Of a DNA stretch of 34,172 bases, positions 1 to 33,695 are shown in pieces; position 1 is the stretch's first letter; each line of letters opens with the position of its first letter. The stretch covers positions 1-34,172 of IMG/VR virus record IMGVR_UViG_3300047200_000456; one strand, 5' to 3'. Position numbers and translations under genes: made by a program. The notes under the pieces were generated by a model that saw only the letters and a list, made by a program, of their open reading frames with translations, had not been told where the DNA came from and did not search any database. Source of the stretch: a virus.

Positions 1-131
1 CCACAAGACTGAGGACAAAGGCTGTATGCGGCTTTCTGGCCTAAATCAAAGCCTCTATTCCATCCAATGCACCATCCGGTGAGGTAGGTGAGAGACATTA
101 CAAGGACAATAGCTAGTGTTTTAAGTATCAC
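1..131 (-). CDS. Small membrane protein, partial (runs off window start)
   Basis: No function recognised. A GTG codon overlaps the stop region of the upstream helix-turn-helix gene and follows a purine-rich GAGGTGG about six bases before it. The frame then stays open to the edge of the window (43 complete codons). The first 20 or so residues are hydrophobic (MILKTLAIVLVMSLTYLTGW), which fits a signal peptide or membrane anchor, followed by a polar, Gly- and Cys-containing stretch. It is the last visible gene of the short leftward operon and is translationally coupled to its neighbour. The C-terminus is missing, so length and role are unknown. It could be a lysis-type or exported peptide. Confidence 0.5.
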   Translation of the reverse strand, partial: MILKTLAIVLVMSLTYLTGWCIGWNRGFDLGQKAAYSLCPQSC

Positions 132-537
132 TTTCCACCTCAATAACTTTTTCTGTAGAGCCGGGTAAAATAACATTTAGAGTTGTATCGGCCTGCTTCA
201 CTTCATTTTCCATTAGGCCCATGGTTTTAAGAACTAGCTTAACAGCCTCTAAGTTGTTATCGTCTAAGTGGTTCTCTAAGACCTGAAGAGCTTTTTTACC
301 AAGCTTTCCAATGCTCTGTCTCATTTCCTGTACGAGAGGAAGAAGCTCCGCCTCGCTTAGGTTAGTCAGATGGGCCTTAAACTCTTGAGAATCGACTAAC
401 TTTTTCGTAGCCCACCGAGAAAGTCCTAACTCCTTGGACAATCCCAATATGCTGTCTTTACCCGCTAACACAAGAAGAGCGGCCTTTTTTGTCAGCACTG
501 CGTCGATGATAATTTCCGGCTTTTCTTCTTTAGACAT
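121..537 (-). CDS. Helix-turn-helix protein, candidate terminase small subunit
   Basis: A 138-residue, mostly helical protein. Residues about 25-50 read as a helix-turn-helix (SILGLSKELGLSRWATKKLV), followed by a long helical region (70-110) and a short beta-like tail (TTLNVILPGSTEKVIEVE). Phage small terminases share this build: an N-terminal DNA-binding domain, a helical oligomerisation core and a C-terminal portal- or TerL-binding tail. No better candidate lies beside the large terminase at the right end of the window. Against this, TerS usually precedes TerL directly, and here they are at opposite ends of the window; they would be near neighbours only if the genome is circular or circularly permuted. 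It could instead be a transcription regulator. Its ATG directly follows the stop of the zinc-ribbon gene upstream. Confidence 0.5.
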   Translation of the reverse strand: MSKEEKPEIIIDAVLTKKAALLVLAGKDSILGLSKELGLSRWATKKLVDSQEFKAHLTNLSEAELLPLVQEMRQSIGKLGKKALQVLENHLDDNNLEAVKLVLKTMGLMENEVKQADTTLNVILPGSTEKVIEVESDT

Positions 538-741
538 TTAAATATCCTTGAGTGTTAGGGGCTTTGAAGGGTCATAGGTTTCAATTACAAATGGCTTATC
601 ATATCCAAAAACGTTTGAGCTTTCTTGTTTCTTTACCCTTAGTTCACGCTCTCCGCTTGAACATCTAGGGCAGGTTTTACTATCTTTAGGTGAGATGTGC
701 CATTCGTGCCCACAATAATTACAAGTAGCTTTCCAAGTCAT
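538..741 (-). CDS. Small zinc-ribbon protein
   Basis: A 67-residue protein with two CxxC knuckles (C7/C10 and C24/C27, in CNYCGHEWH and TCPRCSSGE) spaced as in a rubredoxin-like zinc ribbon, followed by a charged linker and a short acidic tail. Such ribbons bind zinc and usually mediate protein or nucleic-acid contacts; no specific role can be assigned. Its ATG overlaps the stop codon of the serine protease gene upstream (ATGA arrangement), and its stop abuts the start of the helix-turn-helix gene, so all belong to one leftward transcript. It is the first of two CxxC ribbon proteins in the window; the other is at 5740. Confidence 0.7.
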   Translation of the reverse strand: MTWKATCNYCGHEWHISPKDSKTCPRCSSGERELRVKKQESSNVFGYDKPFVIETYDPSKPLTLKDI

Positions 742-1421
742 TTTTCAATCCCGAACATTGCGTAGAAACTGATGGTAGGTGTAAACAAAGCTGCTCCACC
801 AGACACGGCGGTATTGACTGCTACAACCACAATGCTTTTTCCGTCAGTCATAAACACCGGTCCACCAGACATTCCAGGAAACAAGATTCCTTGTCCGGCC
901 AGCATAAACATATAAGAACCCATGAGGTTAATTTTGGTTCCAACAACGTATTTGGTATTCATTGGGTATCCAAAGCTAATAGTCATGAGACCAGACTTAA
1001 GCACCTCAATGTTGGAGTCATTAACAACCGGATGAGCAAAACCTTTGTAGTCGCCCTTTACTAGCCCTAAGTCGATAGATAATCCTGCTCCTACGGCTTC
1101 GCTGGAACCTAAAATAACAAGTCCGTCTGCAGTTCCAACTAAAATCACCCGTTTAGACAAATAATGTTTTTCGTTAAATAAACAATGCCCAGCTGTGAGA
1201 ATATATTGGTCGCTAATGACGGTTCCTGAACAAAACCCTCGGCCTGAATCTCGGTCAATAAGCCTAACTACGGGGTTACGTTCACCTTTATGAAAATGTG
1301 TAGGATAAGGAAGATTTGGGGCGTATTGGATAGAAGGACGTCGCCCATCATCTTGATTAAAGTACAAGATGGCTGAAATTACTATAATTGATGCTAATAC
1401 TAAACTTTTTAATTTCTTCAT
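738..1421 (-). CDS. Exported trypsin-like (S1 family) serine protease
   Basis: A 227-residue protein with the S1/trypsin catalytic triad in order: His79 in ILTAGHC, Asp117 in SIDLGL, and Ser185 in GMSGGP (oxyanion-hole GxSGG). Cys64 (FCSGTVIS) and Cys80 sit where the conserved His-loop disulfide is found. Residues 5-21 form a single hydrophobic segment after a Lys-rich start, so the enzyme should be exported or anchored facing the periplasm or cell surface. It has no long propeptide and is close to minimal length for the fold. The ATG follows an AGGAGA ribosome site and a TTGACA/TAAATT promoter, and it is the first gene of the leftward operon. It is not a prohead protease, because those are cytoplasmic and of other folds. 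Possible roles are lysis, surface remodelling or exclusion of other phages; these are inference only. Confidence 0.85.
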   Translation of the reverse strand: MKKLKSLVLASIIVISAILYFNQDDGRRPSIQYAPNLPYPTHFHKGERNPVVRLIDRDSGRGFCSGTVISDQYILTAGHCLFNEKHYLSKRVILVGTADGLVILGSSEAVGAGLSIDLGLVKGDYKGFAHPVVNDSNIEVLKSGLMTISFGYPMNTKYVVGTKINLMGSYMFMLAGQGILFPGMSGGPVFMTDGKSIVVVAVNTAVSGGAALFTPTISFYAMFGIEK

Positions 1422-1622: not shown

Positions 1623-1650
1623 ATTATACAAATTTATAAAAAGCTGTCAA
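1623..1650 (-). promoter_or_regulatory. Consensus sigma70 promoter, leftward
   Basis: The minus strand reads TTGACA (1650-1645), a 16-base spacer, then TATAAT (1628-1623): full matches to both sigma70 hexamers. Transcription would start near 1616 and give a roughly 190-base leader before the serine protease ATG. It lies back to back with the rightward promoter, so this 250-base gap is a divergent control region. Confidence 0.75.
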
Positions 1651-1837: not shown

Positions 1838-1966
1838 ATGGACTTATTTTTCTTAATACTCTTAATATGTGTTAGCCTTGTTTTTTCACCTATACCATAT
1901 ACCCTCATTATAATGTTAGTGGGTTATGCTCACAATAAGGACCACAATGATAGACAAAAACACTAG
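1838..1966 (+). CDS. Tiny membrane protein
   Basis: A 42-residue hydrophobic protein (from MDLFFLILLICVSLVF) with one long or two short membrane segments spanning residues 2-32 and a basic, His-rich tail (HNKDHNDRQKH). I place the start at the ATG at 1838, eight bases after AAGGA; an in-frame ATG at 1829 would overlap the preceding stop and has poor spacing. Its 3' end overlaps the start of the nuclease gene by about 20 bases. Function unknown; holin-like or host-envelope-targeting roles are possible but unsupported. Confidence 0.55.
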   Translation: MDLFFLILLICVSLVFSPIPYTLIIMLVGYAHNKDHNDRQKH

Positions 1967-2687
1967 CTGGAGTTTCAGTAGTTATAGCACTGCTCTTAGT
2001 TGTTTGCAAAAGTATAAGTATGTTTACGTTGATAAACTGCAGCAAGAACAAGAAATAGGTGACCTCGCTTTTGGTAAAGCTGTGCATAGCGCCATTAACG
2101 GGTCATTAGAAGGAGAAGACGGCGAGATGTTATTTGACCTCTATTGGGGCACATATAAAACGCTTCCAGTGGAGTACGGTCGATATAAGTGGGACTATTT
2201 GCAAAATGCTGGGTCTGAACTGATGCGTAAGTTTGTTAAGTTTTACAAACCACGTCTAGAACCAATCATTATGGAAAAGCGTGCCTATAGCGAGTATAAA
2301 GGTATGAAGGTTGAGGGAACACTCGACTTCTACGGAAAGCTAGACGGCGTTGAAAGTCTCATTGACTGGAAAACAACCGGTTATCCATATGATAAAGATA
2401 AGGCCCTTATCGCTTTACAGCTTCATTTATACGCTTATTTGTGTATTAATGAGTTTAAGGTTGTGCCTAAGCAAGTTGTTTATTTTCCTTTTGTTAAGAG
2501 CAAAGGTTCCATTCAAGAGCCTATTATTATACCTCTTGACGAAAGTAAAATGCATGCTATGCTCGATACTATGAAAGCGTACGTAGATAAATTAGGAAGC
2601 TCTTCAGACGCCCCTAAAAATTACAATAGCTGTATCATGGGCACTATGAAGTGTCAATTCTTTAACAAATGTCACAAAGGAGAATAG
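1947..2687 (+). CDS. PD-(D/E)XK nuclease, Cas4/RecB-type, probable Fe-S protein
   Basis: A 246-residue nuclease of the PDDEXK_1/Cas4-RecB superfamily. The catalytic set is visible in order: His47 (FGKAVHSAI), Asp127 (VEGTLDFYG), Asp140-x-Lys142 (LIDWKTT) and the QxxxY motif Gln158/Tyr162 (QLHLYAY). Four cysteines, one near the N-terminus (Cys19) and three at the C-terminus (Cys229, Cys236, Cys242), are arranged as in Cas4 and AddB, where they hold a 4Fe-4S cluster. It should be a DNA exonuclease producing single-stranded ends. The start is the ATG at 1947, five bases after AAGGA; a longer in-frame start is less likely. The next gene encodes a Rad52-family annealing protein and starts immediately after, matching exonuclease/annealase recombination pairs. 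Confidence 0.85.
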   Translation: MIDKNTSWSFSSYSTALSCLQKYKYVYVDKLQQEQEIGDLAFGKAVHSAINGSLEGEDGEMLFDLYWGTYKTLPVEYGRYKWDYLQNAGSELMRKFVKFYKPRLEPIIMEKRAYSEYKGMKVEGTLDFYGKLDGVESLIDWKTTGYPYDKDKALIALQLHLYAYLCINEFKVVPKQVVYFPFVKSKGSIQEPIIIPLDESKMHAMLDTMKAYVDKLGSSSDAPKNYNSCIMGTMKCQFFNKCHKGE

Positions 2688-7155: not shown

Positions 7156-7517
7156 AAAAGAAACCTACTAAAGTCAAGAAAAAAGCTAAGCGTACTTGGA
7201 GCCAACGAGTATTCTTTATCACAGCCCTTCGAAGAGTTAGCTATTTATTACCTAATCGTAAAGTGGCCCTGGCACACGCTAAAGTGGGCATAGGAAGATG
7301 GAAATGCGCTATCTGTGGAAAGCACCTACTTAAAGGCGAGTACGCGGTAGACCACATCAGCCCAGTAATCCCTTTAAGTGGGTTTGACAATTGGGATGGG
7401 TTTGTTGCAAGATTAGATTGTGCACCGGAAGGGCTGCAGATTTTATGTAAAAAACCCTGCCATGCCGCCAAAACCAAATTTGAGAACTCACTAAGGAGGA
7501 AATATGCTAAAGTTTAA
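7152..7517 (+). CDS. HNH endonuclease-like protein
   Basis: A 121-residue protein with a very basic N-terminus (MKKKPTKVKKKAKR) and an HNH/ββα-metal core. Cys52/Cys55 (CAIC) and Cys99/Cys103 or His104 hold the structural zinc, Asp67-His68 (YAVDHISPV) is the catalytic DH pair, and Asn80 and a second His complete the motif. It is expected to be a metal-dependent DNA nickase or nuclease. The start at 7152 overlaps the previous stop as ATGA; an upstream in-frame start exists but lacks a separate ribosome site. Being tightly embedded in the replication operon, it may be a genuine replication or recombination nuclease rather than a homing enzyme, unlike the next HNH gene. Confidence 0.8.
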   Translation: MKKKPTKVKKKAKRTWSQRVFFITALRRVSYLLPNRKVALAHAKVGIGRWKCAICGKHLLKGEYAVDHISPVIPLSGFDNWDGFVARLDCAPEGLQILCKKPCHAAKTKFENSLRRKYAKV

Positions 7518-7716
7518 AGAGCACCACTATTACACTCATCCGGAAGATTACCAACCAGACTTCTTTGTGACTAAAGTGCTAGAGCAGACTGGGTGTTACG
7601 CCGTGTTAATGGTAAAGCCTTTTGATAGCACCTCTTACCTACTGGGCGACGAACAGCTGAAAGTAATCACACCATTTGTTTACGACCAATGGAAAGATAG
7701 GGCTTATGGCCGTTAG
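7504..7716 (+). CDS. Small protein of unknown function
   Basis: A 70-residue protein with an excellent ribosome site (AAGGAGG four bases before ATG). It is rich in aromatic and charged residues (HHYYTHPEDYQPDFFVTKVL, YLLGDEQLKVITPFVYDQWK) and looks like a compact mixed alpha/beta domain. No motif is recognised. It starts inside the 3' end of the HNH gene and overlaps the next HNH gene by about ten bases. If the following gene is a mobile homing element, this small gene marks its left flank. Confidence 0.55.
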   Translation: MLKFKEHHYYTHPEDYQPDFFVTKVLEQTGCYAVLMVKPFDSTSYLLGDEQLKVITPFVYDQWKDRAYGR

Positions 7717-8146
7717 ACCTATAGCAGGGCTACTAATTGACCCAGAAGATGAACATTTACTCACACAGTACAAATGGTACTTTCATTCTGCTGGGTACGT
7801 GTGCACTAGTAGGTCTTTACTCTTACACAGGTTAATAATGAAAGCTCGAAAGGGCCAGGTAGTCGACCACGCAAACCGCAATAAGCTAGACAATCGAAAG
7901 AGTAACTTGAGACTTTGTACTACGTCCGACAATAATAAAAACAGAAGAGTTGCAAAAAGCAGCAAATCAGGATACAAAGGCGTATATTGGTGTTCTCAAA
8001 ATGAGAGGTGGCGCGCTTCGATAAACGTTAATAGTCGCCGAATTCATCTGGGATTTTACGATTGCGTTAAAACAGCCGCCCTTGCGTACAACAAAGCCGC
8101 TGTCAGGTACTTTAAACAGTTCGCTATGTTAAATGAGGTCATATGA
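7706..8146 (+). CDS. HNH homing-type endonuclease with AP2 DNA-binding domain
   Basis: A 146-residue protein with two parts. Residues ~35-85 are an HNH nuclease (LLLHRLIMKARKGQVVDHAN, Asp54-His55, then NKLDNRKSNLRLCT with the family Asn residues). Residues ~88-135 are an AP2/ERF-type DNA-binding domain (SGYKGVYWCSQNERWRASI, HLGFYDCVKTAALAYNKAA). This is the classic architecture of free-standing phage homing endonucleases. I start at the ATG at 7706; a longer in-frame version begins inside the upstream gene. It lies between a small gene and the primase, so it is probably a mobile insertion in the operon. Its stop overlaps the primase ATG. Confidence 0.9.
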   Translation: MAVRPIAGLLIDPEDEHLLTQYKWYFHSAGYVCTSRSLLLHRLIMKARKGQVVDHANRNKLDNRKSNLRLCTTSDNNKNRRVAKSSKSGYKGVYWCSQNERWRASINVNSRRIHLGFYDCVKTAALAYNKAAVRYFKQFAMLNEVI

Positions 8147-9160: not shown

Positions 9161-9858
9161 ATAATAAAACTATTATATTTGTATCCGACTTACATGCGCC
9201 CTATATGCATCCAGATGCGCATAAGTTTTTAGCAGCCGTAAAGGCTAAGTATAAGCCCACTAGAGTTATCTTTAGTGGCGACGAAGTGGACTATCACGCC
9301 ATTAGTTTCCATGATAGCGACCCAGACCTCTACTCTGCCGGGCACGAACTTGAGGCAGCAATTAAGCAGCTTCAGCCTCTTTACAAACTATTTCCTAAAG
9401 CAGAGATACTTGAGTCAAACCACGGTTCCCTTGTTTTTCGAAAAGCAATTGCTAATGGAATGCCTAGGGAAGTGTTTAAGTCCCCTGGTGAAATATTGAA
9501 GGCCCCTAAAGGCTGGACTTGGCACTTTGACCTCACAACTACGCTTCCTACGGGCTTTCAGTGTTATTTTCATCACAGTAAGGGCGCAAACGTGAAAAAG
9601 AATTCTCAGGCCATGGGAATGTCGTTTTGTCAGGGCCATCACCACGAAAGCTTTGATATTCAATACTGGGGTAATCCAAATGCTCTGCTCTTCGGCATGA
9701 CAGTGGGATGTTTAGTGGACCCCCATAGTTTAGCGCTGGCTTATAACAAGAACAACTTAAGACGGCCTGTCTTAGGTGTAGGGATTATCATCGAGGGTAT
9801 CCCTCAACTTATACCAATGATTTTAGGTAAAAATAGAAAGTGGGTAGGTAAATTGTGA
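9157..9858 (+). CDS. Calcineurin-like metallophosphoesterase
   Basis: A 233-residue protein with the metallophosphoesterase metal ligands in order: Asp11-x-His13 (VSDLHAP), Gly41-Asp42 (FSGDEVD), Asn88-His89 (ESNHGS), then FHHSKG and GHHHESF near the C-terminal side. Family enzymes use two metals to cleave phosphomono- or diesters; substrates include nucleotides, cyclic nucleotides, polynucleotide ends and DNA (Mre11/SbcD). Its place at the end of the replication genes suggests nucleotide or DNA-end processing, but it lacks the SbcD capping domain. The GTG start overlaps the previous stop and follows AGGAG. Confidence 0.85.
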   Translation: MNNKTIIFVSDLHAPYMHPDAHKFLAAVKAKYKPTRVIFSGDEVDYHAISFHDSDPDLYSAGHELEAAIKQLQPLYKLFPKAEILESNHGSLVFRKAIANGMPREVFKSPGEILKAPKGWTWHFDLTTTLPTGFQCYFHHSKGANVKKNSQAMGMSFCQGHHHESFDIQYWGNPNALLFGMTVGCLVDPHSLALAYNKNNLRRPVLGVGIIIEGIPQLIPMILGKNRKWVGKL

Positions 9859-10094
9859 TTGATTTTATTAAGAAGTGGGTAGTGGGACCTGTAGTGGCTG
9901 TACTGGGAGTGGTGCTTTACATTTTCTTAAAGAAACCCGCTCCGCCAGCCCCTAAGCCAGTAGAAGAGAAACTAAAAGAACTTAAAACCGAAGTGGATAT
10001 GCAAAAAGGAGTAGCTAATGAAGCAAGTAAAAATTGGGAAGATATTCGTGGTCAGTATGTGCATGATGATAGCAAGCCTTCCGGCTCTAGCTGA
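9855..10094 (+). CDS. Single-pass membrane protein, i-spanin-like
   Basis: A 79-residue protein. It has a short cytoplasmic start, a transmembrane segment at residues 8-26 (WVVGPVVAVLGVVLYIFLK), a Pro-rich linker (PAPPAPKPVEE) and a charged helical tail (KLKELKTEVDMQ). This N-in membrane anchor with a periplasmic helix matches the topology of Rz-type inner-membrane spanins, although it is short. The following gene begins inside it in another frame, as Rz1 does inside Rz. That partner, however, lacks a clear lipobox. The GTG start overlaps the upstream stop. Role in lysis is an inference from topology and gene overlap. Confidence 0.5.
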   Translation: MIDFIKKWVVGPVVAVLGVVLYIFLKKPAPPAPKPVEEKLKELKTEVDMQKGVANEASKNWEDIRGQYVHDDSKPSGSS

Positions 10095-10377
10095 TGAAAC
10101 GGGCTGCATGAGTGCTATAAAGCTATGTGATAAAGCCTATCAAGAACAGAAAGCGTTGGCTCAAAAGACCGATGCTTATGCTAAAGAATTGGAGAAACAG
10201 AATGCTAAGGTGGTTGATGAATTGGCCAAAGAGAAACAGGCTGATAGTAAATTCACTCATAATCCTCTCGCTATGTCTGCTATCGGTGTCGCTGGAGGTG
10301 CTGGTGCTGTCGCTCTTAGTCCCATCGTCCTGCCAATTGTCGCTGGAATCGTACTGGTAGCCGCGCTATTTAATTAG
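10018..10377 (+). CDS. Exported protein with C-terminal membrane segment, candidate lysis partner
   Basis: A 119-residue protein starting with ATG after a strong AAGGAG site inside the preceding gene. Residues 1-25 are a signal peptide with a likely signal peptidase I site (SLPALA|DE). C30 and C37 could form a disulfide. Residues ~38-80 are a charged helix or coiled coil, and residues ~84-118 are a Gly/Ala-rich hydrophobic C-terminal segment. It should be a periplasmic coiled coil anchored in the inner membrane. Overlap with an i-spanin-like gene suggests a lysis module, but it is not a lipoprotein, so it is not a standard Rz1. It ends the rightward operon and overlaps the convergent minus-strand gene by 12 bases. 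Confidence 0.55.
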   Translation: MKQVKIGKIFVVSMCMMIASLPALADETGCMSAIKLCDKAYQEQKALAQKTDAYAKELEKQNAKVVDELAKEKQADSKFTHNPLAMSAIGVAGGAGAVALSPIVLPIVAGIVLVAALFN

Positions 10378-10551
10378 TAGTCTTATCATTAGGCCGATTA
10401 GCAAGGACGCTAAAAAGCCTATTTGGTATTTCTCAAGTTTTTCTATTCTTGCCTCTGCCAAAGTTGTTCTTTTAATGTGCTCTTCCAAACTCACTGTATT
10501 TCTGATCAAAGTTTCTTTTATCTCTTGAAGATCTTTTCTTATATCGAGCAT
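10366..10551 (-). CDS. XhlA/holin-accessory-like coiled-coil membrane protein
   Basis: A 61-residue protein. Residues 1-40 are an amphipathic coiled coil (DLQEIKETLIRNTVSLEEHI, RIEKLEK) and residues 43-60 are a C-terminal transmembrane helix (IGFLASLLIGLMIRLLI). This layout and the SLEEHIKRT phrase resemble the XhlA/haemolysin group and other phage holin-accessory proteins. It is the last gene of the long leftward virion operon and faces the rightward candidate lysis genes. Together with 9855-10377 these are the best lysis candidates in the window. No terminator hairpin is evident in the few bases between the converging operons. Confidence 0.6.
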   Translation of the reverse strand: MLDIRKDLQEIKETLIRNTVSLEEHIKRTTLAEARIEKLEKYQIGFLASLLIGLMIRLLIK

Positions 10552-14076: not shown

Positions 14077-16485
14077 TTAGATACCTATTCTCGAGATGGA
14101 TACTGAGTTCAAATAAGTGGCGTTTGATGTAACCGAAGTATTGCTACTACTAAAGGTGATCAAATCTCCGGCTTTGCAGTCAACTAAATCCGTATTAATC
14201 CCATTTGTTGTGGAGCTACACTCCGACCCCTGGCTTACGATAGCCCCATTTTTTAGTATATATGGCACCAGTCCGGAAGACCCATTGTAAAGCCTAGCCA
14301 CTATTTGATATTTTCCAGCGGCGGGAATTGTGTACTGGTAAGTGGATGTATTAAACGCGTTATGGGTGTCAATGATTTTAATGTCGTAAACGCTGGCCGT
14401 CGGGACAGAGTTAATAACCGACCCGGCAGTAGCTTCGTACTTCATCGCAACTGTCTCGTTTGCGGCAATTTGTTCTGGGCCTGACAGCCTTTCGATGTCA
14501 AATGCCGTTGTGGCTCCAGCCAGCTGATTTGACCCCTCCTGCATAATCGCTATTGTATCGCCAGAAACTAAACTAACCAGAACACTTCCAGTCGCTAAGT
14601 CGTTAGTAATGGTATTTGTCTGTCCAACGTACCCGGCATTGGTATTATTTTTTGCGACTAGATAGGAGGTTTGAGCAGATGAAATGGCCTGTATGGAGGC
14701 CGAAACCCTGTAAATTCCTGAAGTTGGGGCTGTGTAGTAGCCCGTGCTAGTCGAGTAGGCCGCATGCGTATCAAACACAAAAGTATCAAAGAGGATCGGG
14801 GTAAAGGCTGTCGGAGTAGCTGCGGTAGCCATAAAATATCGGGCAGCAACAACTCTCGTATCGGCATCGCTGCTCATGACTAAACTAGAAGACCAGCCCG
14901 TAATTGGAACAATAAAAGTCCAAGTAATTTCATCATTTATGCCAAAAGAAAATGGGACAGTACCACCAAAAACTCCTACTCTAACTCTTAAAGTGTCTGA
15001 GTAGTAACAGTTATTCCCATTAAATACTTGTGAACCAGAATCTAAAGCAGATGAAATTCCAAGTAAACCGCCGTCGCTAGTTGTAGAGTTAACCTTACTA
15101 GAATCAATAGCCAATCCAGGCGGTAACGTTACGTATGGAACGTTCCATGTACCAGCGGAGCCGGTAAATAGTAATCTTCCGGTAACTTCTAGAGAATCTC
15201 CAACTCTCCTATAGTTCGATGTAAGAACGTAGTTTGTGATTGTTCCTGATGACGTAGTAATAGTTGGTGTGTAGGGAACCCAATCCGTAACAGGGGCGCC
15301 GAGCTCCTTCACTTGAGGGCCAACACTCACGCTGTCAATAAGAAGAGTATATGCTGAACCAGAAGCGTTTGACTCGTGGATGGCAAGTCGGTAAGATCTG
15401 TTAGCTGAGTGTGTTTGAAACACGCCCATATATTTATACTTTGTGCCAATGACAGCGCCAGCTAGCTTAAAGGGGGTGAGGGGAATACGCTCACCAGATG
15501 TGATGTCGACGATGTGAACACTTAGGTCGCCTAAAGCAGAATCGGAACCTGGAACAAATGAACCGCTTGCGATGGAGTAGGAAAACTCAACTTGAAGGAT
15601 GTGGGCTAAGTCTTCTCTATTGATGTTATAATCGCCTACAGCAAGCCCTAAGTCTGTGCTGATGCCTTCCCCTGCCCTAGTAGCTGAATCCTTCGTTATA
15701 AGGCCGCTGGCGGTGTTTGCCAAAGGAGAAGAAGTGGTGCGGGTAAGGGTAATGTTTCCAGTCCCGCCCGTAGCGTTAATAGGCTGCAGAGGGCGCATTG
15801 TATGCGTTCCTGTTCCACCGTCAGTCATATCTACAGCAGTTCCGCCCAAAGTGGCGCTAACTTGGAAAGTGTCTGTGGTTTTATTGATTACAAAATACGT
15901 TGTGGCGGTCGACAGACCTGCTGGGAGAGTGCCAGTGGAGGTGAAAATGACTTTGTCGTCATTAAGCAGGCCGTGTGCCGTGATGGTGATGGTCTCGGTG
16001 CCAGTATCTACATCGGTGTTTAAAAACGTTGCTGTGTCATTATAGACAGACCAGTTGCCAGTGGTAGATTCAAAGTCGGGATTAAGAACGTAGTTGGTTC
16101 CACCGCCGCCGCTGCCAGCGCCCACTTTGGTTTCAGTTCCATTGTCATTAAGCTGATAAAGAAATCCGTCGGCTTTAAAATAAACCTTACCAAATCCTGA
16201 AGTAGGAGTAGAGGGAGTAGCAAGTTCTTTTAGGATGAGGCCTGAGGTGTCAATGTCTGTACCGGTGCCACCTCGAGTTGTTGCTAAATTGGCTTCAGAG
16301 CTAAGCGACCCTGTGCCGCTGTTAATTACAACGTGATCAGCCGTGCCGTTTTCAATAGCAGCTCTGTTAATCTGATTAGACAAGTTGAAGTGGTCTTTAA
16401 TCGACTGGAACTTGCTATTTACTTCAGCGCTCTTAATCTTAGTGAACGCTACGAAATCTGCTACAGTATAAGTTAAATTCGCCAT
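14077..16485 (-). CDS. Modular tail fibre / receptor-binding protein with two C1q-like domains
   Basis: An 802-residue fibre. Residues 1-45 (MANLTYTVADFVAFTKIKSA) form the particle-anchoring start common to podovirus fibres. Residues ~130-405 resemble a carbohydrate-binding-like phage module (NYVLNPDFESTTGNW, ...NITLTRTTSSPLANTAS, LQVEFSYS), interrupted at ~152-230 by a separate beta domain (HGLLNDDKVIFTSTG, TYFVINKTTDTFQVSAT). A further beta module follows (DSLEVTGRLLF, PPGLAIDSSKV). The end carries two C1q/TNF-like jelly-rolls, at ~560-675 (STGYYTAPTSGIYRVSASI) and ~680-802 (STYQYTIPAAGKYQIVARL). It should bind the host surface. The downstream 56-residue gene starts at its stop. Confidence 0.85.
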   Translation of the reverse strand: MANLTYTVADFVAFTKIKSAEVNSKFQSIKDHFNLSNQINRAAIENGTADHVVINSGTGSLSSEANLATTRGGTGTDIDTSGLILKELATPSTPTSGFGKVYFKADGFLYQLNDNGTETKVGAGSGGGGTNYVLNPDFESTTGNWSVYNDTATFLNTDVDTGTETITITAHGLLNDDKVIFTSTGTLPAGLSTATTYFVINKTTDTFQVSATLGGTAVDMTDGGTGTHTMRPLQPINATGGTGNITLTRTTSSPLANTASGLITKDSATRAGEGISTDLGLAVGDYNINREDLAHILQVEFSYSIASGSFVPGSDSALGDLSVHIVDITSGERIPLTPFKLAGAVIGTKYKYMGVFQTHSANRSYRLAIHESNASGSAYTLLIDSVSVGPQVKELGAPVTDWVPYTPTITTSSGTITNYVLTSNYRRVGDSLEVTGRLLFTGSAGTWNVPYVTLPPGLAIDSSKVNSTTSDGGLLGISSALDSGSQVFNGNNCYYSDTLRVRVGVFGGTVPFSFGINDEITWTFIVPITGWSSSLVMSSDADTRVVAARYFMATAATPTAFTPILFDTFVFDTHAAYSTSTGYYTAPTSGIYRVSASIQAISSAQTSYLVAKNNTNAGYVGQTNTITNDLATGSVLVSLVSGDTIAIMQEGSNQLAGATTAFDIERLSGPEQIAANETVAMKYEATAGSVINSVPTASVYDIKIIDTHNAFNTSTYQYTIPAAGKYQIVARLYNGSSGLVPYILKNGAIVSQGSECSSTTNGINTDLVDCKAGDLITFSSSNTSVTSNATYLNSVSISRIGI

Positions 16486-33236: not shown

Positions 33237-33695
33237 CTATTCATCTTCTTCCGGAATTTCTTTTTCGAGGCCCTCATTATGACGCTTTAAATAAGACGAG
33301 GCTCTAGCAGCTGTTTCTTCATTATCCTTTAAGTGCCCTAGCGCTAAATTGCAGTTAAAACAAAGCAGCCCTCTAATCTTATTGGACCGGTGGCAGTGGT
33401 CCACGTGCATACGAGAGTGGTTGAGTACATCAAGGCAAATGGGGCATCGGTTCTTTTGGGTTTGCAGAATAGTGTTAACGCCTTCTTGTGAAAGCCCATA
33501 TTTCCATTTTATGGAATACCCTCGCGCTTTCTCCCTGGTTACTGGGTTAGCGCTCTTATATGCCGCTACTCTGGCTTTGCTGCAGGACTTACACGTTGAC
33601 TGTAAGCCACCTTTTTGACTGGCGTTTCTATGGAACTCTGCTTTTTCTTTGAGTGTTTTACACTGGCTACACATCTTAATTTTTGGCGTTATCAC
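33237..33695 (-). CDS. Recombination endonuclease VII-family protein
   Basis: A 152-residue protein with two zinc-type Cys sets: an N-terminal C9/C12...C35/C38 pair and the endonuclease VII core C84/C87...C112/C115. The catalytic signature is MHVDHCHRSNKIRGLLCFNC (Asp99-His100-Cys101-His102 and Asn116). T4 endonuclease VII (gp49) resolves Holliday junctions and branched replicative DNA so that it can be packaged; placement just before TerL fits this exactly. The start is GTG at 33695 and overlaps a tiny upstream ORF ending ATGTGA, with GAGG just before. An extra N-terminal zinc knuckle distinguishes it from minimal family members. Confidence 0.9.
   Translation of the reverse strand: MITPKIKMCSQCKTLKEKAEFHRNASQKGGLQSTCKSCSKARVAAYKSANPVTREKARGYSIKWKYGLSQEGVNTILQTQKNRCPICLDVLNHSRMHVDHCHRSNKIRGLLCFNCNLALGHLKDNEETAARASSYLKRHNEGLEKEIPEEDE

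Follow-up and report, generated by a model that had tools for sequence, protein, structure and literature searches.

The window (the whole stretch of DNA analysed here, 34,172 nt) is an IMG/VR record, IMGVR_UViG_3300047200_000456, which is classed as linear and is a 34 kb fragment. Four minus-strand genes were found in the order protease, 67-aa zinc-ribbon-like protein, probable terminase small subunit (TerS) and membrane ORF (Table 1). On the plus strand, the replication operon begins with a PD-(D/E)XK nuclease, which marks a conserved neighbourhood, followed by a single-strand-annealing-type recombination protein and DNA polymerase A. The protease heads the late operon and is divergent from the replication genes, which supports the early/late boundary proposed in a first-pass annotation made from the sequence. 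TerS was named by its position and by homology within the lineage, its homologues adjoining the protease in relatives; no Pfam or PHROGs family matched the window TerS.

Table 1. Features of the protease locus and associated small genes; a contig handle precedes coordinates that belong to a relative
Feature	Coordinates	Strand	Basis or remark
Membrane ORF after TerS, cut by window edge	1..176	-	In relatives, endolysin after TerS
Probable TerS, third operon gene	121..537	-	Conserved position and HTH-like sequence
67-aa zinc-ribbon-like protein	538..741	-	Overlaps protease stop; same gene after protease in G004
Exported S1 (chymotrypsin-fold, HtrA-like) serine protease, 227 aa	738..1421	-	Pfam, AlphaFold2 model and PDB matches
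Codon TCT of catalytic Ser185 (GMSGGP)	867..869	-	Invariant column in both alignments
Codon GAC of catalytic Asp117	1071..1073	-	Invariant column in one alignment (IDLGL versus xDLCL in relatives)
Codon CAT of catalytic His79	1185..1187	-	TAGHC motif, invariant alignment column
N-terminal hydrophobic helix, residues 2-22	1356..1418	-	Hydropathy and model
Sigma-70 consensus promoter TTGACA-N16-TATAAT, 12/12	1623..1650	-	About 200 nt upstream of ATG
PD-(D/E)XK nuclease, first large gene of divergent replication operon	1926..2687	+	PDDEXK_1, E 1.4e-14
79-aa protein, N-terminal TM and proline-rich/helical stretch	9855-10094	+	Just before uSp
uSp, 119-aa exported protein with signal peptide, coiled coil and C-terminal TM	10018-10377	+	Conserved in lineage
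61-aa coiled-coil protein with C-terminal TM	10366-10551	-	Convergent with uSp in most relatives
Two-Cys small exported protein	L061 5971-6246	-	
Two-Cys small exported protein	L067 16452-16673		
Two-Cys small exported protein	L071 10868-11122		
Two-Cys small exported protein	L076 3594-3836		

The protease ORF starts from an ATG at 1421 on the minus strand, with AGGAG about 8 nt 5′ of it, and its product passed the curated cut-offs of both Pfam Trypsin (E 5.3e-8) and Trypsin_2 (E 5.7e-8). As read from the sequence, it has the His-Asp-Ser order and the GxSG motif of S1/clan PA proteases. Pfam and the alignments showed that the triad assigned at first (His79, Asp117 and Ser185) was correct; in the second alignment the Asp117 stretch was placed differently and His79 was invariant. 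The N-terminal hydrophobic segment follows KKLK, reaches a maximum mean Kyte-Doolittle value of 2.2 over 17 residues and is predicted to be a signal anchor or signal peptide, with no lipobox Cys. Export was called by hydropathy alone, in place of signal-peptide predictors, and we infer the membrane topology from the KK..K n-region. In trypsin, Asp189 of the S1 pocket lies at the position six before the catalytic Ser, where by sequence offset the window protease has Ile179, so that Lys/Arg specificity would not be expected and the earlier term "trypsin-like" would be apt for the fold only. The window protease has no Cys pair at His+2/Asp+2; Cys64 and Cys80 are present, in a placement like that of the chymotrypsin C42-C58 disulphide.

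A model of the window protease was built with AlphaFold2 from a 43-sequence alignment (pLDDT 71.8, pTM 0.62), and consisted of a helix at residues 2-22 followed by the chymotrypsin fold (double beta-barrel) whose presence the first-pass annotation had implied. The best solved matches had Z scores of 17-18 over about 170 residues, namely MarP/Rv3671c (Z 18.1) and Deg1, DegP, MamO and DegS (Z about 17.4-17.8), all five being tied within method error (within 1 Z). For the protease of the relative G033, modelled with a pLDDT of 92.9, AlgW, DegS and MarP matched at Z 24-25. Judged from the models, the window protease is nearer to HtrA, MarP and DegS than to trypsin. MarP of Mycobacterium tuberculosis (PDB 3k6y; Z 18.1, rmsd 2.9, 172 residues, 13% identity) is a membrane-anchored periplasmic chymotrypsin-fold protease, as proposed for the phage protein, but has four predicted N-terminal helices where the window protein has one hydrophobic helix. 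NCBIfam NF033740 was not matched by the window protein, and one relative matched it far below the cut-off.

The fold is likewise common to DegS, DegP and AlgW of the HtrA family (S1C), and the phage protease family profile matched HtrA proteases at E 1e-20; the window sequence itself matched HhoA/HtrA weakly (E 8.5e-5, 22 bits, cut-off 450). DegS is a periplasmic protease anchored by a single helix, and the phage protease resembles it in having a single N-terminal anchor. DegS, DegP and AlgW carry a PDZ domain, which in DegS and DegP is a peptide sensor, whereas no match to this HtrA C-terminal domain was obtained for the phage protease, the window protein stopping after the protease domain, and the phage proteases are encoded in phage late operons. 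PHROGs family 9683 ("protease", category other) was matched weakly by the window protein (E 1.2e-4) and by relatives at up to 1.3e-11. Sinorhizobium phage phiM9 and Rhizobium phage P10VF have been reported to encode a trypsin-like serine protease (PMC10783043); these belong to the T4-like supercluster, and the likeness noted here is one of annotation. An origin in anti-phage defence was considered and rejected, as the PADLOC matches were weak and only to the trypsin-like domains of RT-protease and LmuA models. A link with CARD-NLR systems was also rejected, since the known trypsin-like proteases there sit in multidomain proteins.

The promoter upstream of the protease is the sole 12/12 sigma-70 match in the 34 kb window, where 0.03 would be expected, which supports the earlier view of the protease as the first gene of an operon with a consensus promoter. 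A 12/12 site was also found 241 bp upstream of the protease in G004, and 11/12 sites upstream of it in G034 and G002. The leader of about 190 nt between promoter and ATG gave no clear structure (z -1.67), no Rfam family match and no clear conservation beyond the promoter. The motif AATAGGGT was set aside, its occurrence being near chance.

Near-complete relatives of the window phage, all of them metagenomic contigs, are 43.3-44.7 kb in size (about 43-45 kb), with capsid-protein identity to the window of 65-76%. Their size indicates that about a quarter of the window genome (about 10 kb) is absent, between TerS and TerL. Since synteny is conserved in related phages, the protease ORF is phage DNA and not flanking host DNA, as the first-pass annotation had supposed. 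Its description of the phage as lytic agrees with the finding of no integrase among the window ORFs searched, to be read as a subset of the ORFs of a genome of which about 10 kb is absent. Two scans of genome contigs for a host found no relative of the protease or the major capsid protein. The window also encodes a probable tail fibre of 802 aa that carries a C1q domain (14077-16485, minus strand; Pfam E 8.7e-12), an HNH/AP2 homing-type endonuclease (7676-8146, plus strand) and a recombination endonuclease VII-like protein (33237-33695, minus strand). A conserved family of collagen-like (GxxG) lipoproteins was noted in L156 (1946-2350) and, on the minus strand, in L111 (10789-11097), L072 (1189-1587) and L078 (447-854); searches of GenBank phages and of plasmids with its representatives gave no match, and the family may offer a hint of the host.

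No convincing relative came from single-sequence searches with the window protease, and relatives were revealed by family profiles and synteny only. Trypsin_2 found a protease 5′ of TerS in all four near-complete relatives, and further members were obtained via protease, polymerase and recombination-protein profiles, so that the search for viral neighbours suggested at first did find related phages with the protease at the same locus. Eight relatives have the order protease - (Zn ribbon) - TerS - endolysin; G035 has no TerS there, and its endolysin directly follows the protease. The endolysin is of the M15 type in some relatives and GH24 in others; the slot is therefore conserved while the enzyme changes. 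In four relatives, the gene directly 5′ of the protease encodes a small protein, exported or lipoprotein-like, in which two Cys are conserved; it was not found in the window.

A scan with the recombination protein, which is independent of the protease, gave 13 contigs covering the locus. The protease was at the locus in eight and elsewhere in one (L250), with no recognisable protease at the locus in the other four (L248, L254, L259 and L274). It is therefore not essential in all relatives; it is common but not universal in the lineage, and such uneven occurrence speaks for a function that is helpful but not essential. In L248, an unrelated exported 151-aa protein (7284-7739, minus strand) occupies the protease slot 5′ of TerS. 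G031 (36.6 kb) has uSp and an endolysin, with no Trypsin_2 match. The fragment G001 has no protease directly 5′ of TerS, where the contig ends; G030, which comes from that sample too, begins on the nuclease side, and the sequence between the two is unread.

The window protease matched the profile of its relatives at E 0.003 with 11% probability. A profile of the relatives built without it ranked it first among the window ORFs, also at E 0.003, with filters off, and did not find it with default filters. Its orthology to the proteases of the relatives rests on position, and the window protease may have diverged rapidly or may be a replacement by another exported S1 protease at that locus.

A profile search of IMG/VR found 80 protease loci in several phage groups, encoding 69 distinct proteins. 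At the threshold used, an N-terminal hydrophobic segment was present in 68 of these, compared with 0-9% in the comparison sets (TerS, nuclease, SSAP, polymerase, TerL and M15 proteins); together with the hydropathy and model helix of the window protein, this supports the export segment described at first. A lipobox-like motif was found in 17 of the 69 proteins, and Cys at both His+2 and Asp+2 in 65, a pattern to be expected if the proteins are located in an oxidising compartment. The His and Ser motifs are intact in all 69, and the Asp motif was found by regex in 65, the remaining four being regex failures in which it is present by eye. Searching 50,697 GenBank phage records with five of the proteases by tblastn gave no convincing hit (best E 0.6). 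An S1 protease had been considered unusual in a phage; this one is not an oddity of a single phage, since it recurs in several groups of uncultured phages.

In 22 of the 25 loci with a detected endolysin, which come from several phage groups, the endolysin lies on the protease strand within 3 kb, the loci being not independent, with near-duplicates and members of the same lineage included, and the endolysins being detected with profiles seeded from this lineage; in the other three it is on the opposite strand. At least two independent layouts were found: in the window lineage the endolysin is downstream, beyond TerS, whereas in larger phages such as L081 it is upstream, in the order endolysin - TerL - protease - portal, about 2.4 kb from the protease. 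In L103, the protease is followed by an M15 endolysin whose start is 2 bp away. The exported protein uSp is a candidate lysis protein and lies directly before a GH24 endolysin in L257 and L258. The 61-aa product convergent with it appears holin-like or XhlA-like, by appearance only, and had no database match; the 79-aa product matched Rz-like spanins without significance (E 0.15). L250 and L123 have the protease between uSp and the convergent coiled-coil/TM gene. Protease, uSp and endolysin are tied together by position.

Given its export, late position and endolysin link, the best single explanation of the protein is that of a late periplasmic protease which helps to dismantle the envelope at lysis, a reading which we hold tentatively, at somewhat less than even confidence. 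The protein would be a periplasmic serine endoprotease anchored in the inner membrane, structurally of the HtrA/MarP/DegS kind but lacking PDZ. It would be co-expressed with the late genes from the strong sigma-70 promoter and inserted by its N-terminal helix with the catalytic domain toward the periplasm; it would then cleave envelope proteins, after which the peptidoglycan hydrolase and small membrane lysis proteins would open the cell. Likely targets would be proteins that tie the envelope layers together or, alternatively, a peptidoglycan hydrolase of host or phage which cleavage would activate or release. MarP activates the peptidoglycan hydrolase RipA by cleavage (PMC6628586), which by analogy makes this a plausible way for the phage protease to act. 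Several points count against a lysis role. Four of the 13 relatives have no recognisable protease; adjacency to the endolysin may reflect late expression only, since a single late operon contains the terminase and structural genes as well as the endolysin; and the window's own endolysin lies in the absent 10 kb or so. The positional orthology of the window protease, the lineage-seeded endolysin profiles and the relatedness of many of the loci weigh on the same side.

The first-pass annotation had proposed three roles: attack on envelope proteins at lysis, surface modification against superinfection, and help in a host with a proteinaceous surface layer. The first gains the most support, from the gene neighbourhood, with the contribution to lysis itself held as tentatively as above. 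None of the analyses made gave a sign of acquisition from a host, of a surface layer or of superinfection exclusion. Superinfection exclusion or surface remodelling, by a periplasmic protease that breaks down receptors or the proteins which incoming phages eject, is unlikely in our estimate. Export and membrane anchoring would suit it, consensus sigma-70 promoters could allow expression by the host polymerase from early on, and patchy occurrence with fast divergence would fit an arms-race gene; however, in several groups the protease lies in the late operon by packaging and lysis genes, not among early genes, and at least two phages hold it between small membrane genes that resemble lysis genes. 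Somewhat less probable again is a role in envelope quality control, in which the protease would clear misfolded periplasmic protein late in infection like DegS or DegP, or rewire the host envelope-stress response. The nearest folds are indeed those of DegS, DegP, AlgW and MarP, and DegS is likewise a periplasmic protein on a single-helix anchor, but the phage proteases have no PDZ domain and the link with endolysins would not be predicted.

The gene might also be accessory cargo (a moron) of host origin, retained among the late genes but with no specific function in lysis. Its absence from some relatives and the unrelated exported protein in the L248 slot are in keeping with this, but we consider it slightly less likely than quality control, as the gene turns up in distinct phage groups, often close to genes for lysis or packaging, and the catalytic His and Ser are intact in all 69 proteins. 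Maturation of capsid or tail proteins in the virion is highly improbable: the protease adjoins TerS, TerL or portal genes in different groups, near which prohead proteases are often found, but the hydrophobic segments (68 of 69), lipobox-like motifs (17) and Cys pairs (65) point to a location outside the cytoplasm, where capsids assemble, and no known prohead protease family was matched, all Pfam and PHROGs matches being to trypsin-like families. The earlier statement that this cannot be a prohead protease is probably right, as a conclusion from predicted topology.

Lysis of outer-membrane bacteria by phages is described in terms of holin, endolysin and spanin. If the protease does help to dismantle the envelope at lysis, it would resemble spanins, which perform the outer-membrane step, in providing an envelope-disrupting step beside the endolysin, but spanins are non-enzymatic membrane-spanning proteins and the phage protein is predicted to be an enzyme. 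Among the open-access papers searched, none was found to describe such an exported protease acting in phage lysis. That an exported HtrA-like protease serves several groups of uncultured phages as a dedicated lysis protein, beside spanins or in their place, is a possibility to which we give clearly less credence than to a helping role at lysis. The protease gene can mark a phage lineage whose genomes are of about 44 kb and which has no close cultured relative. The presence beside endolysins, in several uncultured phage groups, of a conserved exported protease with intact catalytic residues suggests that envelope breakdown may include an enzymatic step, and the analysis names concrete genes with which enzymatic opening of the envelope may be tested.
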